Shown piece by piece: positions 21,519 through 27,833 of a stretch of 40,410 nt of DNA (the stretch's first letter is position 1; the number at the start of each line of letters is the position of its first letter). The notes beneath the pieces are model-generated. The model was not told the DNA's origin, did no database searches, and saw only the letters and a program-made list of their open reading frames with translations. The DNA is taken from positions 1 to 40,410 of the forward strand of contig LGGM01000005.1 of NCBI GenBank assembly GCA_001509345.1, given 5' to 3'. The stretch is from Clostridiales bacterium 38_11. GTDB taxonomy: Bacteria > Bacillota > Clostridia > Tissierellales > Dethiosulfatibacteraceae. A program made the translations under genes and the position numbers.

Positions 21519-22229
21519 CTATAATTTTTCAACTATTTTGGCTGCAATTGCTTTGAAGTCTTTAAGGATTTGGCCCGTTTGGTTATTCATGACTTCTATG
21601 GATTCATAATCGCTATTGAACCCCATATCTCCTATTATATTGATCCGCATCATTTCTTCAAGTTCTTTCTGATTATACATTCTTCCTTTAAGCATTTCCG
21701 TTTTTGAAAACTTGTTGATCACTGTTAATAGGTTTTCTATATTTTCTTTTCCAATCTTCTGGATACATGAATCGATTTTTTTTAGGTCTTCCGTCTTGCT
21801 TTCGGTTATGAAAACAATCTTATCCAATCCGTCATAATCATAGTACACATCATCCTGATACAGGTCTATCCCATCAATAATAATATAATCATAGCTTTTA
21901 CTAAATATCATAAAAAACTTCTCAAACATTTTGGAGTCCTTGAATGTCTTATTTTTGAGCCTTGGCGCAGGTATCAAATCAAATGAATACGTATCATCCT
22001 GGTATTTGATGGTTGCTTCCTCCCCTGAACACATCCCAGACATCAAATCGACAAAATCATAGATGATGTTTTCGTCATTACCTAAATAAGAGGCAGCTGA
22101 TTTTGTAGATTTCGACATGTCTACAAATAGCACTTTATGTTTCATCGCAAGAATTTTGGCTATTTCAATGGCTAAAATCGTTTTACCCTGTTTGCCATTA
22201 CATGACGTTACTAGTGTGAATTTACTCAT
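21519..22229 (-). CDS. divergent MinD/ParA-like P-loop ATPase
   Basis: This 236-residue protein has the fold pattern of the MinD/ParA family: VTS-CNGKQGKT at residues 7-17, a helix, then KVLFVDMSKS, YIIIDG at the Walker B position, and DKIVFITES. The deviant Walker A of the family (KGGxGKT) is altered: the signature lysine is N11 and the second glycine is K13, while the P-loop K16 and T17 remain. No clear MinD C-terminal amphipathic helix is seen (it ends FKAIAAKIVEKL). It lies 13 nt after the PBP2 gene, the place where minC-minD normally follows in Clostridia. ATG 22229 has GGGGG 5 nt upstream; an ATG further upstream overlaps PBP2. Membrane or division-site positioning is possible but unproven. 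Confidence 0.8.
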   Translation of the reverse strand: MSKFTLVTSCNGKQGKTILAIEIAKILAMKHKVLFVDMSKSTKSAASYLGNDENIIYDFVDLMSGMCSGEEATIKYQDDTYSFDLIPAPRLKNKTFKDSKMFEKFFMIFSKSYDYIIIDGIDLYQDDVYYDYDGLDKIVFITESKTEDLKKIDSCIQKIGKENIENLLTVINKFSKTEMLKGRMYNQKELEEMMRINIIGDMGFNSDYESIEVMNNQTGQILKDFKAIAAKIVEKL

Positions 22230-22242
22230 TTTTTCCCCCTCT

Positions 22243-25200
22243 CTATTCATCAACTTTTTCAGGTTCAAGACCTAAATACTCTCCGATTATATCTCTGACC
22301 AATGGTGCTGGAAATCTGCCCGAACCTCCTTGAAATATGACAACTGCTACAGCTATTTGCGGATCATCTGCAGGTGCATAGGCTATATACCATGCAAAGT
22401 CATCATAGAGTTCCCCTGTTTCTGGATTTGTGCCCTCTCTTTGAGCTGTTCCTGTTTTTGATGCCACTCTCACCGGAAAATCATTGAACACTTTGCTGTC
22501 AGCAGATACCATTTCCATTCCCTGGGTCAATATGTCCAAATAGGAATAATCACTGATTTGTATGCGTTCTGAAGTTCTCAGCGGTTCGTATACAACTGAA
22601 GCATTATCGTATGTCTTGCCCTCCTTTATAACGCTAACGTTTCTAAGATATCCACCGTTAGCTATGGTAGCGATGTAGTTTGCCATCTGCAATGGCGTAT
22701 AGGCATTGCTTCCCTGTCCTATACTTATATTAAGATTGTCTCCATCATTCCACACAGCCTGATTGAGATAAGTGTATTTTATCATATCAACTAAAGGAAT
22801 ACCTTTAGCATCAACCTTGTCAGGTCTCAAGCCTAAATCCTTAAGATTCTCATAAACCTCTCCTCTTGTTAACGGCTCGTCTCCTCTGACCCAACTGACT
22901 ATTGTATTGATCATCTGTTCTTTCTCATCCGAGTTGTAATGCTTATCCAATGCGTAGAATCTATCTATATTTCTGTCCAAATAATCTCTCAAAAAATACT
23001 TGATGGAACCGATTTTAGCATCCGGACTTGGGACACCACCAGAAAATTCATTTGGTATCTGTATCTCAATCCCAGTCTTATCATTTAGTCCGAGTTGTTT
23101 TGCCATAGACAGCAAATCATCCAATTCAACTCTGGTCGATATTTTTTGGTTTGTTGCTCTGTTTTCTCCCAGCACCAGTGTATAGAAGTAGAAATTGCAT
23201 GAATCTCTGATCGCCTCAAACATGTTTTCATAACCATGAATCGCCTTATACATGTTCCATATCCAACATCCAAAAGTCTGATTGCCAATTTCAATATACC
23301 CGGCACCATATATCTTTTCATATGGTGAGATACCTTTTTCCAATGCTGCCAGTGCTGTAACCAGTTTAAATGTCGAGCCTGGTTGAATGGCTGTTAACAT
23401 GGAAATATTATACAGTGGCCTTGGGGCCATAGAATCTTTCGATTCATTTGAAAGGGTAATCCAATCTTCCTGTGATATTCCTGTAGCGAAAAGATTTGGA
23501 TCATAAGACGGATCATTGACCATTGCAATCAACTCACCCGTTTTAACATCTATAGCTACCACGGCACCCGAGTTTGCATTTTTGTATGCTCTGTCAAATT
23601 TGTAGTCTCCCCATTTGCTCTCGTAAACGCCTCCAGCTCTTATTTTATCCATGGTATAGGTCAATAAAGCTTCCGTCTTTTTTTGAAGCTCAATATCAAC
23701 TGTCAGGTATAGATTGTTTCCCGGTATTGGTTCTGCTGTCTCCAGTGAGCTGATTCTGTTTCCGTAAACATCCACTTTAAGTGTTTCTTTACCTTTTGTT
23801 CCACTTAAGAGTAATTCAAAACTCTCTTCTAATCCTGTCTTTCCAATCAAATCATCTTGTAAGTACCCTTCGGTCTCTACATATTTGGCAATCTCAAAAT
23901 CCTGTGAAATCTTGCCCATATATCCGATTATATGAGCTGCAGACTCATTTTGAGGATAATATCTGAGGGGTTGCACAACTACTTCAACACCTTTTAGCTT
24001 GTCTGAATTCTCAGCAAGTAAAGCTACTGTTTTCTCTGATACGCCATAGCACAAATCAATCGGATGATATGCAAGGTAACCTTGTTTGTCGTATCTTTCT
24101 TTAATGACAAAAAACTTTCTTGCAAGATAATCATTGACATCATCCAGTTCAGCACTTTGTTTAAGATTATGGAAAACGGCTTCTGCAGACATATCCATCG
24201 TAGCATTGCTACCTAGATTAGCCTTTACCCAATTATTTTTTTTGAGTACCGATGTATATTCCCATGCAGATACCGATATCATCGGATTGATGAATGACAA
24301 TAATCTTGATTGTGCAAAAAACTTGACGTCATCCTGCTGTATGACTTCGAAATCCACATTGCTCTTCATTGCCAGATCCAGTAGAATGTTGTATGCAGAC
24401 TCATCTTCAGAATAACCATATTGATTGATAAATACTGTTTTATCCTCATCATTAGTATAATTAAAATAGATGACATTTTGAGTTTCATCAAATCTATAGT
24501 CGATTGGCAAGTCCGGATAATCATTCAGCATCCTATCGTAAAGGATCACGCCAGGCATGATTTTGTTGTCACCATCAGTAAATACAAGCCTATAAAAGCT
24601 GTCCGAACAATAATATCTTACCAGATTCAAAAAGTCCGACTTTGCATCGGTTTCATAAGTTATGGATTCCAATACCGGTACTAGGTCTTTCTTAATCTGT
24701 TCATAATCATTATCAAATGTAAATGAATAGGGAATGAATTGTATTTCTTCATCCAATTCGCCCAATGTCAAAACATCAAAAATATGCTTGCGCAGCTCTG
24801 AATTTGCCAACAATTTCTTAATCAATTTGCTGTCATCGTATATAATCTGTGCCAAATATACTTCTGGAGCTTCCTCACGTGTGATGTCATTGAATTTATA
24901 TTGGCCATCGACATATGAAACTTCTATATTCTCCACTTCATTTTGCAGAATTAAAAGTATTCTTTCTTTAATACTAATCAATGAGTCGGTTTTGCTCTCT
25001 CTTTCAAATATCTGTTCAACTAGCTGATTGTTTATCAGCAAGTCCTCTACCAAATCTTCAATATAATAATATTCAGATTGTTCTAATCCTGTTTTAAATG
25101 TGATTCTGTTCAAAACTATTGGAAATTCATCAATGATTCTCTCATTATTCCTGTCAAGAATATTTGCAAGAAAGAAGACAGTCTCATCAAATTTTTTAAT

Positions 25201-25455
25201 TTCAATATCATCCTTCCTGATTTGCACTGTGAAACTGGGTATATTGCCAGCCAAAAGAACGCCATTTCTGTCATAGATATTGCCTCTTGGTGCTTTTATT
25301 GGAATGTCCCTAATGGTTTTAACATCCGCTTCCGCTCTGTATTCATCGCCATCAACAATTGTCATAACCGCCAGTCTGAATACTAGAATAGCAAACAATG
25401 CGACAACTATAAGAAAAAGAATATTATACCTATTTTTTAGACTCTTGGATTCTAT
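22243..25455 (-). CDS. penicillin-binding protein 2 (SEDS-partner class B transpeptidase), unusually long
   Basis: This is the elongation-specific transpeptidase of the mre operon. Counting from an in-frame TTG at 25398 it has 1051 residues; from the preferred upstream start it has 1070. Catalytic motifs (TTG numbering) are S675-TFK, S733-C-N735 and K981-TG. APRGNIYDRNG (36-46) opens the dimerisation domain. About 300 extra residues (roughly 120-430) precede the part equivalent to normal PBP2, which is usually 600-700 residues long. The TTG start would cut into the membrane anchor and has no ribosome site. Nineteen codons upstream, an ATA at 25455 is preceded by GGTGAT with 4-nt spacing, and restores a basic tail (SKSLKNR) plus a complete membrane segment. 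A non-canonical AUA start is therefore inferred. Confidence 0.9.
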   Translation of the reverse strand: MESKSLKNRYNILFLIVVALFAILVFRLAVMTIVDGDEYRAEADVKTIRDIPIKAPRGNIYDRNGVLLAGNIPSFTVQIRKDDIEIKKFDETVFFLANILDRNNERIIDEFPIVLNRITFKTGLEQSEYYYIEDLVEDLLINNQLVEQIFERESKTDSLISIKERILLILQNEVENIEVSYVDGQYKFNDITREEAPEVYLAQIIYDDSKLIKKLLANSELRKHIFDVLTLGELDEEIQFIPYSFTFDNDYEQIKKDLVPVLESITYETDAKSDFLNLVRYYCSDSFYRLVFTDGDNKIMPGVILYDRMLNDYPDLPIDYRFDETQNVIYFNYTNDEDKTVFINQYGYSEDESAYNILLDLAMKSNVDFEVIQQDDVKFFAQSRLLSFINPMISVSAWEYTSVLKKNNWVKANLGSNATMDMSAEAVFHNLKQSAELDDVNDYLARKFFVIKERYDKQGYLAYHPIDLCYGVSEKTVALLAENSDKLKGVEVVVQPLRYYPQNESAAHIIGYMGKISQDFEIAKYVETEGYLQDDLIGKTGLEESFELLLSGTKGKETLKVDVYGNRISSLETAEPIPGNNLYLTVDIELQKKTEALLTYTMDKIRAGGVYESKWGDYKFDRAYKNANSGAVVAIDVKTGELIAMVNDPSYDPNLFATGISQEDWITLSNESKDSMAPRPLYNISMLTAIQPGSTFKLVTALAALEKGISPYEKIYGAGYIEIGNQTFGCWIWNMYKAIHGYENMFEAIRDSCNFYFYTLVLGENRATNQKISTRVELDDLLSMAKQLGLNDKTGIEIQIPNEFSGGVPSPDAKIGSIKYFLRDYLDRNIDRFYALDKHYNSDEKEQMINTIVSWVRGDEPLTRGEVYENLKDLGLRPDKVDAKGIPLVDMIKYTYLNQAVWNDGDNLNISIGQGSNAYTPLQMANYIATIANGGYLRNVSVIKEGKTYDNASVVYEPLRTSERIQISDYSYLDILTQGMEMVSADSKVFNDFPVRVASKTGTAQREGTNPETGELYDDFAWYIAYAPADDPQIAVAVVIFQGGSGRFPAPLVRDIIGEYLGLEPEKVDE

Positions 25456-25469
25456 TTATATCACCACTT

Positions 25470-25961
25470 CTAATTGATTTTCAATTTTTTAAATATGCTT
25501 TTTTCGAGTCTGAATATTGGATAAAGGATAATTAGATTAAGTACAACTTCTATTAAGATTGGCGTTAACGTTATTAATATGGCTTCTGATCCAATCTTTA
25601 GAAAATAATGGATAAAATAAAAAAATATATGATAAAACAATGTTCCAAAGAGAACAAAATAGAGATTTGTAAAATAATCAAACTTGTAAACATCTTCAGA
25701 AATTCTTCCTGCCAAATAACCTATGCAAAAAAACAATAAGCTGTTCACCCCAAAAAACTGTGAATACAGGATATCAGTGAGAAACCCCAAAATAAAGCCT
25801 AATCCTGCTCCGGTTACTTCATTGGTCTGTAAGGAAATAACCACCAATACCACAAGAACCAAATTGATTGTAACACCAAAAATCTGTAAAAATTGAAGAA
25901 CTGTCGATTGCATTATGAAACTGATGAGTACCAATGCGACAAGTCCAAAATACTTTTTCAT
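25470..25961 (-). CDS. mreD: rod shape-determining protein MreD
   Basis: This 163-residue, very hydrophobic protein has about five membrane segments, with the conserved family stretch NEVTGAGLGFILGFLTDI. MreD bridges cytoplasmic MreB filaments and the PBP2/RodA machinery. It overlaps mreC by 4 nt (ATGA) and starts after an AAGGTGG ribosome site. Its stop codon lies 14 nt before the proposed AUA start of the PBP2 gene, whose ribosome site is in that gap. Confidence 0.93.
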   Translation of the reverse strand: MKKYFGLVALVLISFIMQSTVLQFLQIFGVTINLVLVVLVVISLQTNEVTGAGLGFILGFLTDILYSQFFGVNSLLFFCIGYLAGRISEDVYKFDYFTNLYFVLFGTLFYHIFFYFIHYFLKIGSEAILITLTPILIEVVLNLIILYPIFRLEKSIFKKLKIN

Positions 25962-26797
25962 CTTCTATCCACCTTGATAACGAACACTTCATAAAGTCTT
26001 TCAAAATCCACAATAGGGATTATAGTTATTTTTTCAGTCAACAGATCAGAAGTTTTTTCTATCTTTGCTACTTTTCCTATATAAATATTGGGCAAATAAA
26101 TCTCACCCAAACCCGATGTCACTATCTCGTCATCTACTTTAAGATCCTCTGTTTGACTGAACATGAAAGCTTCAATAATACCATTGATCGATCCCTTTGC
26201 AACTCCACCTTCATTAGTTCTCAGTACCTTTATACTGACACTGCTAATGATATCATCAATTGTTACAACCTTGGACCAATTGTATCCGACGTCCACCACC
26301 TTACCAATCAAACCTACTTTAACCAATTGATCCTCTGTTTTGACTGCCTTAATGACAATGTCATCAACCTGAATGCCATTGTTGGTCCCTTTATCGATCG
26401 TAAATCTTTCGAACCAATTCCCAATATCCCTTGATACTATCTGGCTTTTAACATAATCATATTGAATGTTGCTTAGCATCTCATATTCATTCTTAAGCGC
26501 CTCGGAATTGTTGACAATATATTTCAACTGAATATTTTCTTCCTGAAGCATGCTGTTCTTCTCTTGTAGCTGTAAGTTCTCCTCACGAATTCTGGAAATA
26601 TTGAGCAATAAGTCAAAGGAGTTGGTAAATGTCTGTCCAATAGAGTAAAATACCTTTTGCACGGGCGAAAACACGCTACCTACCATTCCTGATATTTGAG
26701 AAGGTTGGTTGCGTGTGGTGCTCAGTCCTATTGTAATCACCAGAACCAAAATGATAAATAAAAATATGAAGCTGTTTATTTTTTTTGTTTTCTGCAA
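25958..26797 (-). CDS. mreC: rod shape-determining protein MreC
   Basis: This protein of about 280 residues has one N-terminal membrane segment (FIFLFIILVLVITIGLS), a short coiled coil (REENLQLQEKNSMLQEEN), then the paired beta domains of MreC with IDKGTNNGIQVDDIVI and VGLIGKVVDVG. It organises the elongasome outside the membrane. Two starts are possible: GTG at 26806 without a ribosome site, or TTG at 26797 preceded by GGTGAT with 4-nt spacing; the TTG is preferred. It follows mreB closely and overlaps mreD by 4 nt. Confidence 0.93.
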   Translation of the reverse strand: MQKTKKINSFIFLFIILVLVITIGLSTTRNQPSQISGMVGSVFSPVQKVFYSIGQTFTNSFDLLLNISRIREENLQLQEKNSMLQEENIQLKYIVNNSEALKNEYEMLSNIQYDYVKSQIVSRDIGNWFERFTIDKGTNNGIQVDDIVIKAVKTEDQLVKVGLIGKVVDVGYNWSKVVTIDDIISSVSIKVLRTNEGGVAKGSINGIIEAFMFSQTEDLKVDDEIVTSGLGEIYLPNIYIGKVAKIEKTSDLLTEKITIIPIVDFERLYEVFVIKVDRR

Positions 26798-26813
26798 ATT
26801 AATCACCGTTTAT

Positions 26814-27833
26814 CTAAAACATATTATTATACTTATGGATATCGCCACACACTATACCAGTACCCTTTACGACACAGTCAAGTGGGTCTGCGGAAATTCT
26901 CACCGGAACACCTGTTTCTTTGCTTATTAGCTTATCAAGTCTTTTGAGTAAAGCACCGCCACCTGTCAATGTCAAGCCTCTTGTCAGAATATCCGCTGCC
27001 AGTTCTGGTGGTGTGATTTCCAAAACTCTTCTGATGGATCCAATAATAGCGACAATCGGTTCACTCATAGCCTCTCTTATCTCATAGTCTTTAACATTGA
27101 TTTTTTTAGGAAGGCCTGTCACAAGATCCCTGCCTGTCACATCCATGCAAGCCGGTTCTGCATCTTCTTCGTCATGCATCGCATCACCGATGGTGATCTT
27201 CGTCCTTTCTGCTGTTTTTATACCAATCATCATATTATAGTGATACCTGAAATAGTATTGTATAGCTTCATCCATCTTATCTCCAGCAATTTTCAACGAT
27301 TCGCTGGTAACAATGCCTCCCAGAGAAATAACCGCTGTATCGGTTGTACCGCCACCGACATCTACCACCATATTCCCAACTGGCTCATATATATCAATAC
27401 CTTCGCCAATCGCTGCCGCAACCGGTTCTTCTATCAGTATCGCTTTCCTGGCACCAGCTGAAACAGCCGCCTCCTCCACTGCCCTTTTTTCAACAGACGT
27501 GACTTTGGATGGTATACCGATAACAATAATAGGTTTTACAATTTGAAATGTCTTGAGCGCTTTTTTAATAAAATATTTGAGCATTATTCTTGTTATTTCA
27601 AAATCCGCTATCACACCATCTTTAAGAGGTCTGATAGTCACTATGTCAATGGGTGTTTTTTCAAGCATTTCCTTCGCTTCCAAGCCAATTGCTATAATCT
27701 CATTCGTTCCCCGTTTTAACGCAACAACTGATGGCTCGTTGATAAGTATTCCCTTGCCCTTCATAAATACAAGCGTGTTTGCTGTTCCAAGATCAATACC
27801 TATTTTCTTAGAGACTCCATCAAAAAAAGACAT
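26814..27833 (-). CDS. mreB: rod shape-determining actin homolog MreB
   Basis: This 339-residue bacterial actin shows phosphate-1 motif IGIDLGTANTLVF, the VVDVGGGTTDTAVISLGG phosphate-2 loop, and the adenosine-binding GLTLTGGGALLKRLD. It polymerises under the membrane and directs sidewall peptidoglycan synthesis with the MreC, MreD and PBP2 proteins encoded just downstream. A GGAGG ribosome site precedes the ATG; the gap to radC is 12 nt. Confidence 0.96.
   Translation of the reverse strand: MSFFDGVSKKIGIDLGTANTLVFMKGKGILINEPSVVALKRGTNEIIAIGLEAKEMLEKTPIDIVTIRPLKDGVIADFEITRIMLKYFIKKALKTFQIVKPIIVIGIPSKVTSVEKRAVEEAAVSAGARKAILIEEPVAAAIGEGIDIYEPVGNMVVDVGGGTTDTAVISLGGIVTSESLKIAGDKMDEAIQYYFRYHYNMMIGIKTAERTKITIGDAMHDEEDAEPACMDVTGRDLVTGLPKKINVKDYEIREAMSEPIVAIIGSIRRVLEITPPELAADILTRGLTLTGGGALLKRLDKLISKETGVPVRISADPLDCVVKGTGIVCGDIHKYNNMF

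Follow-up and report, generated by a model that had tools for sequence, protein, structure and literature searches.

A conserved AUA, AUC or AUU start codon behind an extended Shine-Dalgarno sequence is probable for the PBP2 gene mrdA in several clostridial families

The gene for the cell-wall transpeptidase PBP2, mrdA, very probably starts at an AUA codon in the Tissierellales member Clostridiales bacterium 38_11. It lies on the minus strand of the window, which is the whole stretch of 40,410 nucleotides analysed (contig LGGM01000005.1, positions 1 to 40,410), in an operon with the order mreB, mreC, mreD, mrdA and with mreBCD directly upstream. From the sequence comparisons we conclude that mrdA carries what appears to be a conserved non-canonical start of the AUH type (AUA, AUC or AUU) with an extended, start-proximal Shine-Dalgarno (SD) sequence, and would join the class of infC, ccpN and sigR-like genes. 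The regulatory part of the explanation, a low PBP2 synthesis that varies with IF3, is argued by analogy and its chances are about even. Very few bacterial genes have been documented with AUA, AUC or AUU starts; infC is the classic AUU/AUA gene and is autoregulated by IF3.

The features around the start are listed in Table 1. The positions of the TAA, the ATA and the GGTGAT and the 4-nt spacing, all given in the initial annotation, were reproduced in the sequence, and the last three bases of the spacer are the in-frame TAA itself. With GGTGAT 4 nt ahead of its ATA, mrdA has the SD feature by which AUH-start genes are judged. The first in-frame ATG, GTG or TTG is TTG 25398-25396, 19 codons downstream of the ATA and inside the membrane helix, and no SD was found ahead of it; reading the frame thus bore out the earlier claim that this is the only conventional start, placed within the anchor and lacking a ribosome site. 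A frameshift or fusion from mreD was ruled out because the TAA shuts the PBP2 frame right before the ATA, and the third frame lacks any start codon and terminates at a TAG. RNA structure around the mrdA start did not exceed that of shuffled sequence (z +1.03).

Table 1. Features of the mrdA start region and its operon in the window
Feature	Position	Strand	Remarks
mrdA (PBP2 transpeptidase)	22243..25455	-	1070 codons from ATA plus stop; TIGR03423, Pfam Transpeptidase and PBP_dimer
ATA, proposed mrdA start codon	25453..25455	-	first codon past the in-frame TAA; homologous codon is ATC, ATA, ATT or ATG across the family
In-frame TAA closing the PBP2 frame upstream	25456..25458	-	kept in the same-genus relative (L003/L032)
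GGTGAT, extended start-proximal Shine-Dalgarno	25460..25465	-	4 nt 5' of ATA; pairing with the 16S 3' end expected
Codons 2-20, ESKSLKNRYNILFLIVVAL	25396..25452	-	basic tail and N-terminal half of the membrane helix; codon 20 is TTG 25398
mreD	25470..25961	-	ATG start, kept in relatives; stop 14 nt before ATA; TIGR03426
mreC	25958..26797	-	most likely TTG start 26797 after GGTGAT-TAAT
mreB	26814..27833	-	ATG start; control gene

TTG 25398, as the first conventional codon in frame, is the pick of an automatic ORF caller, and with this start the upstream stretch would be untranslated and codons 2-20 would be dropped. These codons were compared with those of an independent metagenome-assembled genome of the same genus (G001, JAUYTY010000040.1). 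Seven codon changes were synonymous and two non-synonymous, and 9 of the 11 base differences fell at third positions. The stretch had a codon score of 0.34, while its two alternative frames scored 0.10 and -0.12, and it contains the motif KNRYNIL, which is conserved in relatives. Since the motif is conserved, the divergence is mostly synonymous and the codon score is positive, the 19 codons upstream of TTG 25398 are read from sequence as protein coding. Only the ATA start gives the protein a basic cytoplasmic tail with its N-terminal membrane anchor (ESKSLKNRYNILFLIVVALFAILVFRLAVMTIV), as judged from the residues, in agreement with the tail and full membrane helix that had been proposed for the added residues. 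A start at TTG 25398 is very improbable, since it has no SD, would remove the conserved KNRYNIL tail and half of the helix from a stretch that evolves as coding, and is at odds with the start sites of relatives described below.

The identity of the product as PBP2 was supported by a TIGR03423 (pbp2_mrdA) score of 465.2 bits against the NCBIfam cut-off of 455 and by the Pfam domains PF03717 (PBP_dimer) and PF00905 (Transpeptidase). The protein of about 1070 residues is far longer than the PBP2 models of 593-634 positions. Its Pfam dimerisation match begins only at residue 438, and hence a large insertion is predicted between the anchor and the dimerisation domain; PBP2 proteins of similar length were found across the order. 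The gene after mrdA (21519-22268, minus strand) is MinD-like, but its score of 72.8 is well below the MinD cut-off of 212.9, suggesting a divergent ParA/MinD-type ATPase; a gene similar in sequence also appears to lie downstream of mrdA at another locus (L035). Upstream in the operon, the GTG at 26806, taken as the mreC start by the ORF finder, sits in an SD. TTG 26797, with GGTGAT and 4 nt ahead of it, is the likely mreC start and is conserved in L032 and L034, so that the same geometry claimed earlier for mreC and mrdA was recovered as GGTGAT-TAAT-TTG.

The initial annotation named an assembly error that changed ATG to ATA as its main alternative. The window does come from a draft genome of 156 contigs, ATG is one base from ATA, and ATG occurs at this site in two other members of the family (G002 and G005). 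However, the separate same-genus assembly has GGTGATATAA-ATC at the homologous site with the same TAA upstream. In Dethiosulfatibacter aminovorans DSM 17477, an isolate, the site reads GGTGATCCAA-ATA, again as GGTGAT-N4-ATA. The homologous codon is ATC in G004 and ATT in G007; altogether ATA, ATC or ATT was found in five of the seven family genomes with the site, ATG in the other two, and AUH is therefore not fixed in the family. Other families have ATA or ATT with no canonical alternative. An error is not credible because it would have had to occur independently at the homologous codon in many genomes, and we give this reading next to no weight.

In the 60 nt before the ATA (25456-25515, minus strand), 58 positions were identical between the window and its same-genus relative; of 4950 windows taken across 5 kb, only 11 were as similar. 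This identity suggests that the initiation region of mrdA is constrained beyond the needs of the MreD protein.

The start of mrdA was then assigned in 90 genomes of the order from the SD position and the distance to the motif [KR][DN]R[YF], usually 8-9 codons, with the final assignments made by hand. The start codon was TTG in 46 genomes, ATG in 29, GTG in 7, ATA in 4 and ATC and ATT in 2 each, and the aligned SD spacing was about 4 in most of them. Relatives that start at the downstream TTG position were sought among these 90 genomes and none was found; in all of them the start precedes this conserved motif. A quick tree of 50 PBP2 sequences placed the order's eight AUH genomes in three families (f1, f11 and f19), with basal or near-basal positions in three clades; four parsimony changes were needed. 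An ancestral AUH state with later switches to TTG or ATG is a possible reading of this distribution.

The trait also recurred outside the order, in two further families of the same class. In f58, 7 of 12 genomes had an mrdA start of ATA (G493, G466 and G619) or ATT (G620-G623); within f50, G649 and G435 had ATA. The proposal of an AUA start, when put to relatives, thus survived as a trait that recurs across several families and is not confined to one locus. From the upstream stop as far as the conserved N-terminus, no ATG, GTG or TTG at all was present in the window, G001, G493, G620, G621, G622, G623 and G649, which belong to three families. Several genomes of f58 are closely related or are drafts with partial contamination, and these eight genomes are therefore not eight independent events.

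The sequence just upstream of the ATA raises another candidate, a GTG start followed in the window's genus by read-through or re-initiation past the TAA. The window reads GTG GTG ATA TAA and D. aminovorans GTG GTG ATC CAA ATA, and in G003, G004, G007, G017, G185, G466 and G435 the upstream GTG is in frame with no stop in between. Judged by sequence alone, the GTG within the SD could be the start in D. aminovorans and in some relatives besides. This GTG is, however, part of the GGTG of the SD and is preceded by at most a weak SD, and its frame is shut by the TAA in both the window and G001. In G005, GTG-ATT-TAG stands immediately before an evident ATG whose spacing is the same, and an in-frame GTG is lacking altogether from G493, G620-G623 and G649. 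We regard a GTG start in the window as very unlikely, and the ATA as very probably the start there.

As controls, the same search for genes with no canonical start was applied to mreB and infC and, in line with expectation, yielded 0 of 19 and 5 of 13, respectively; most of the remaining infC genes had the layout GGAGGTG-N6-ATA/ATT or a similar one. The infC gene of the window's own genome (L153) reads GGAGGTGTA ATT ATT AAG. Its start is likely AUU; an ATG just upstream overlaps the SD and would be the annotators' choice. Among 225 coding ORFs, a sample from about 15% of the genome with the window included, mrdA alone had an SD of at least 6 bases directly before an ATA, ATC or ATT right after a stop, with no ATG, GTG or TTG within the next 12 codons. 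A configuration seen in only one of 225 coding ORFs goes beyond chance. Inspection of nine further ORFs whose first canonical start comes late mostly showed a weak coding signal or none ahead of that start, and mostly an ATG or another canonical start at a plausible N-terminus. Hence a genome-wide habit of AUH starts was not supported in the 225-ORF sample.

Even with AUA as the start codon, the codon may have no regulatory meaning and represent drift tolerated by clostridial ribosomes that start well on AUH given a good SD. This alternative agrees with our explanation on the start codon and differs only on its consequence. In C. butyricum and C. sporogenes, AUA, AUU and AUC gave 5-20% of AUG activity with one leader and 40-100% with another, and the higher range favors such tolerance; in E. 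coli they gave 0.1-0.3% or 0.04-3% (PMC9680021). The wandering of mrdA start codons among TTG, ATG, GTG and AUH is also in line with drift. On the other hand, mreB and mreD of the same operon and species hold ATG, which is retained in relatives of the family, and AUH is otherwise a mark of infC in these genomes. ATG is used in 145 of 191 SD-supported starts in the sample of the window's genome, whereas fewer than a third of mrdA genes in the order have it. Drift of this kind is a substantial possibility, somewhat short of even.

In the likely mechanism, the strong start-proximal SD, GGUGAU with 4 nt, would bring AUH into the P site, where the ordinary initiator fMet-tRNA presumably reads AUA with two of three bases paired and the third mismatched. 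IF3 would disfavor this pairing as it does in infC, and the yield of PBP2 would be low. From one mRNA, MreB and MreD would be made from ATG and PBP2 from AUA, so that PBP2 may be limiting, by analogy with known systems, and its synthesis might go up or down as IF3 activity or the supply of ribosomes changes. The putative conserved state is AUA, AUC or AUU at the mrdA start in several families of the class, with UUG in most other members of the order. More tentatively, mrdA may join infC as a second gene with a conserved AUH start in several families of the class, in which the IF3 level or initiation fidelity would directly set PBP2 dosage and couple cell elongation to the state of translation; we hold this broader proposal to be possible but rather unlikely.

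An AUH start in mrdA would be a new and unusually broad addition to a small known class. A cell-shape enzyme and β-lactam target would repeatedly have such a start, in lineages in which infC has a similar layout, and a possible control of cell elongation by initiation fidelity could thereby be tested directly. In many Clostridia-type genomes, standard gene callers would place PBP2 wrongly or cut it short, with either half of the membrane anchor lost or a GTG inside the SD called. A literature search found no link between mrdA or PBP2 and a non-canonical start; subscription journals were outside this search, and novelty is not proven. A recent report on Borrelia cautions that annotation error can lie behind a supposed non-canonical start (PMC13398362), though in mrdA a stop codon bars upstream starts.

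Compared with known systems, mrdA resembles infC in its AUH start, its strong start-proximal SD and its retention across species, and infC of the window's genome and its relatives has a similar layout, GGAGGTG-N-AUH. However, infC encodes the fidelity factor itself and forms an autoregulatory loop, whereas mrdA encodes a cell-wall transpeptidase within an operon. In S. aureus, infC and ccpN start with AUA and cvfC1 with AUU, all with extended SDs and about 10-30% of AUG activity, and citZ also has an AUA start with an extended SD (PMC13009471). The S. aureus genes ccpN, citZ and cvfC1 share the AUH start and extended SD with mrdA, but their starts were mapped experimentally, and they comprise metabolic genes and a small protein, with no penicillin-binding protein among them. 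In Streptomyces, a GTC start and IF3 repression hold SigR below its partner (PMC5472188). The proposed role in mrdA is alike in that a non-canonical start would keep one operon protein limiting relative to its partner, although sigR uses GTC, encodes a sigma factor and has a demonstrated dependence on IF3, which is proposed for mrdA. The window's gene shares with mrdA of rod-shaped bacteria (PBP2, TIGR03423) the mreBCD-mrdA operon order, the domains and the N-terminal membrane anchor, and differs from it in its unusual length and in the putative AUA in place of ATG, GTG or TTG.
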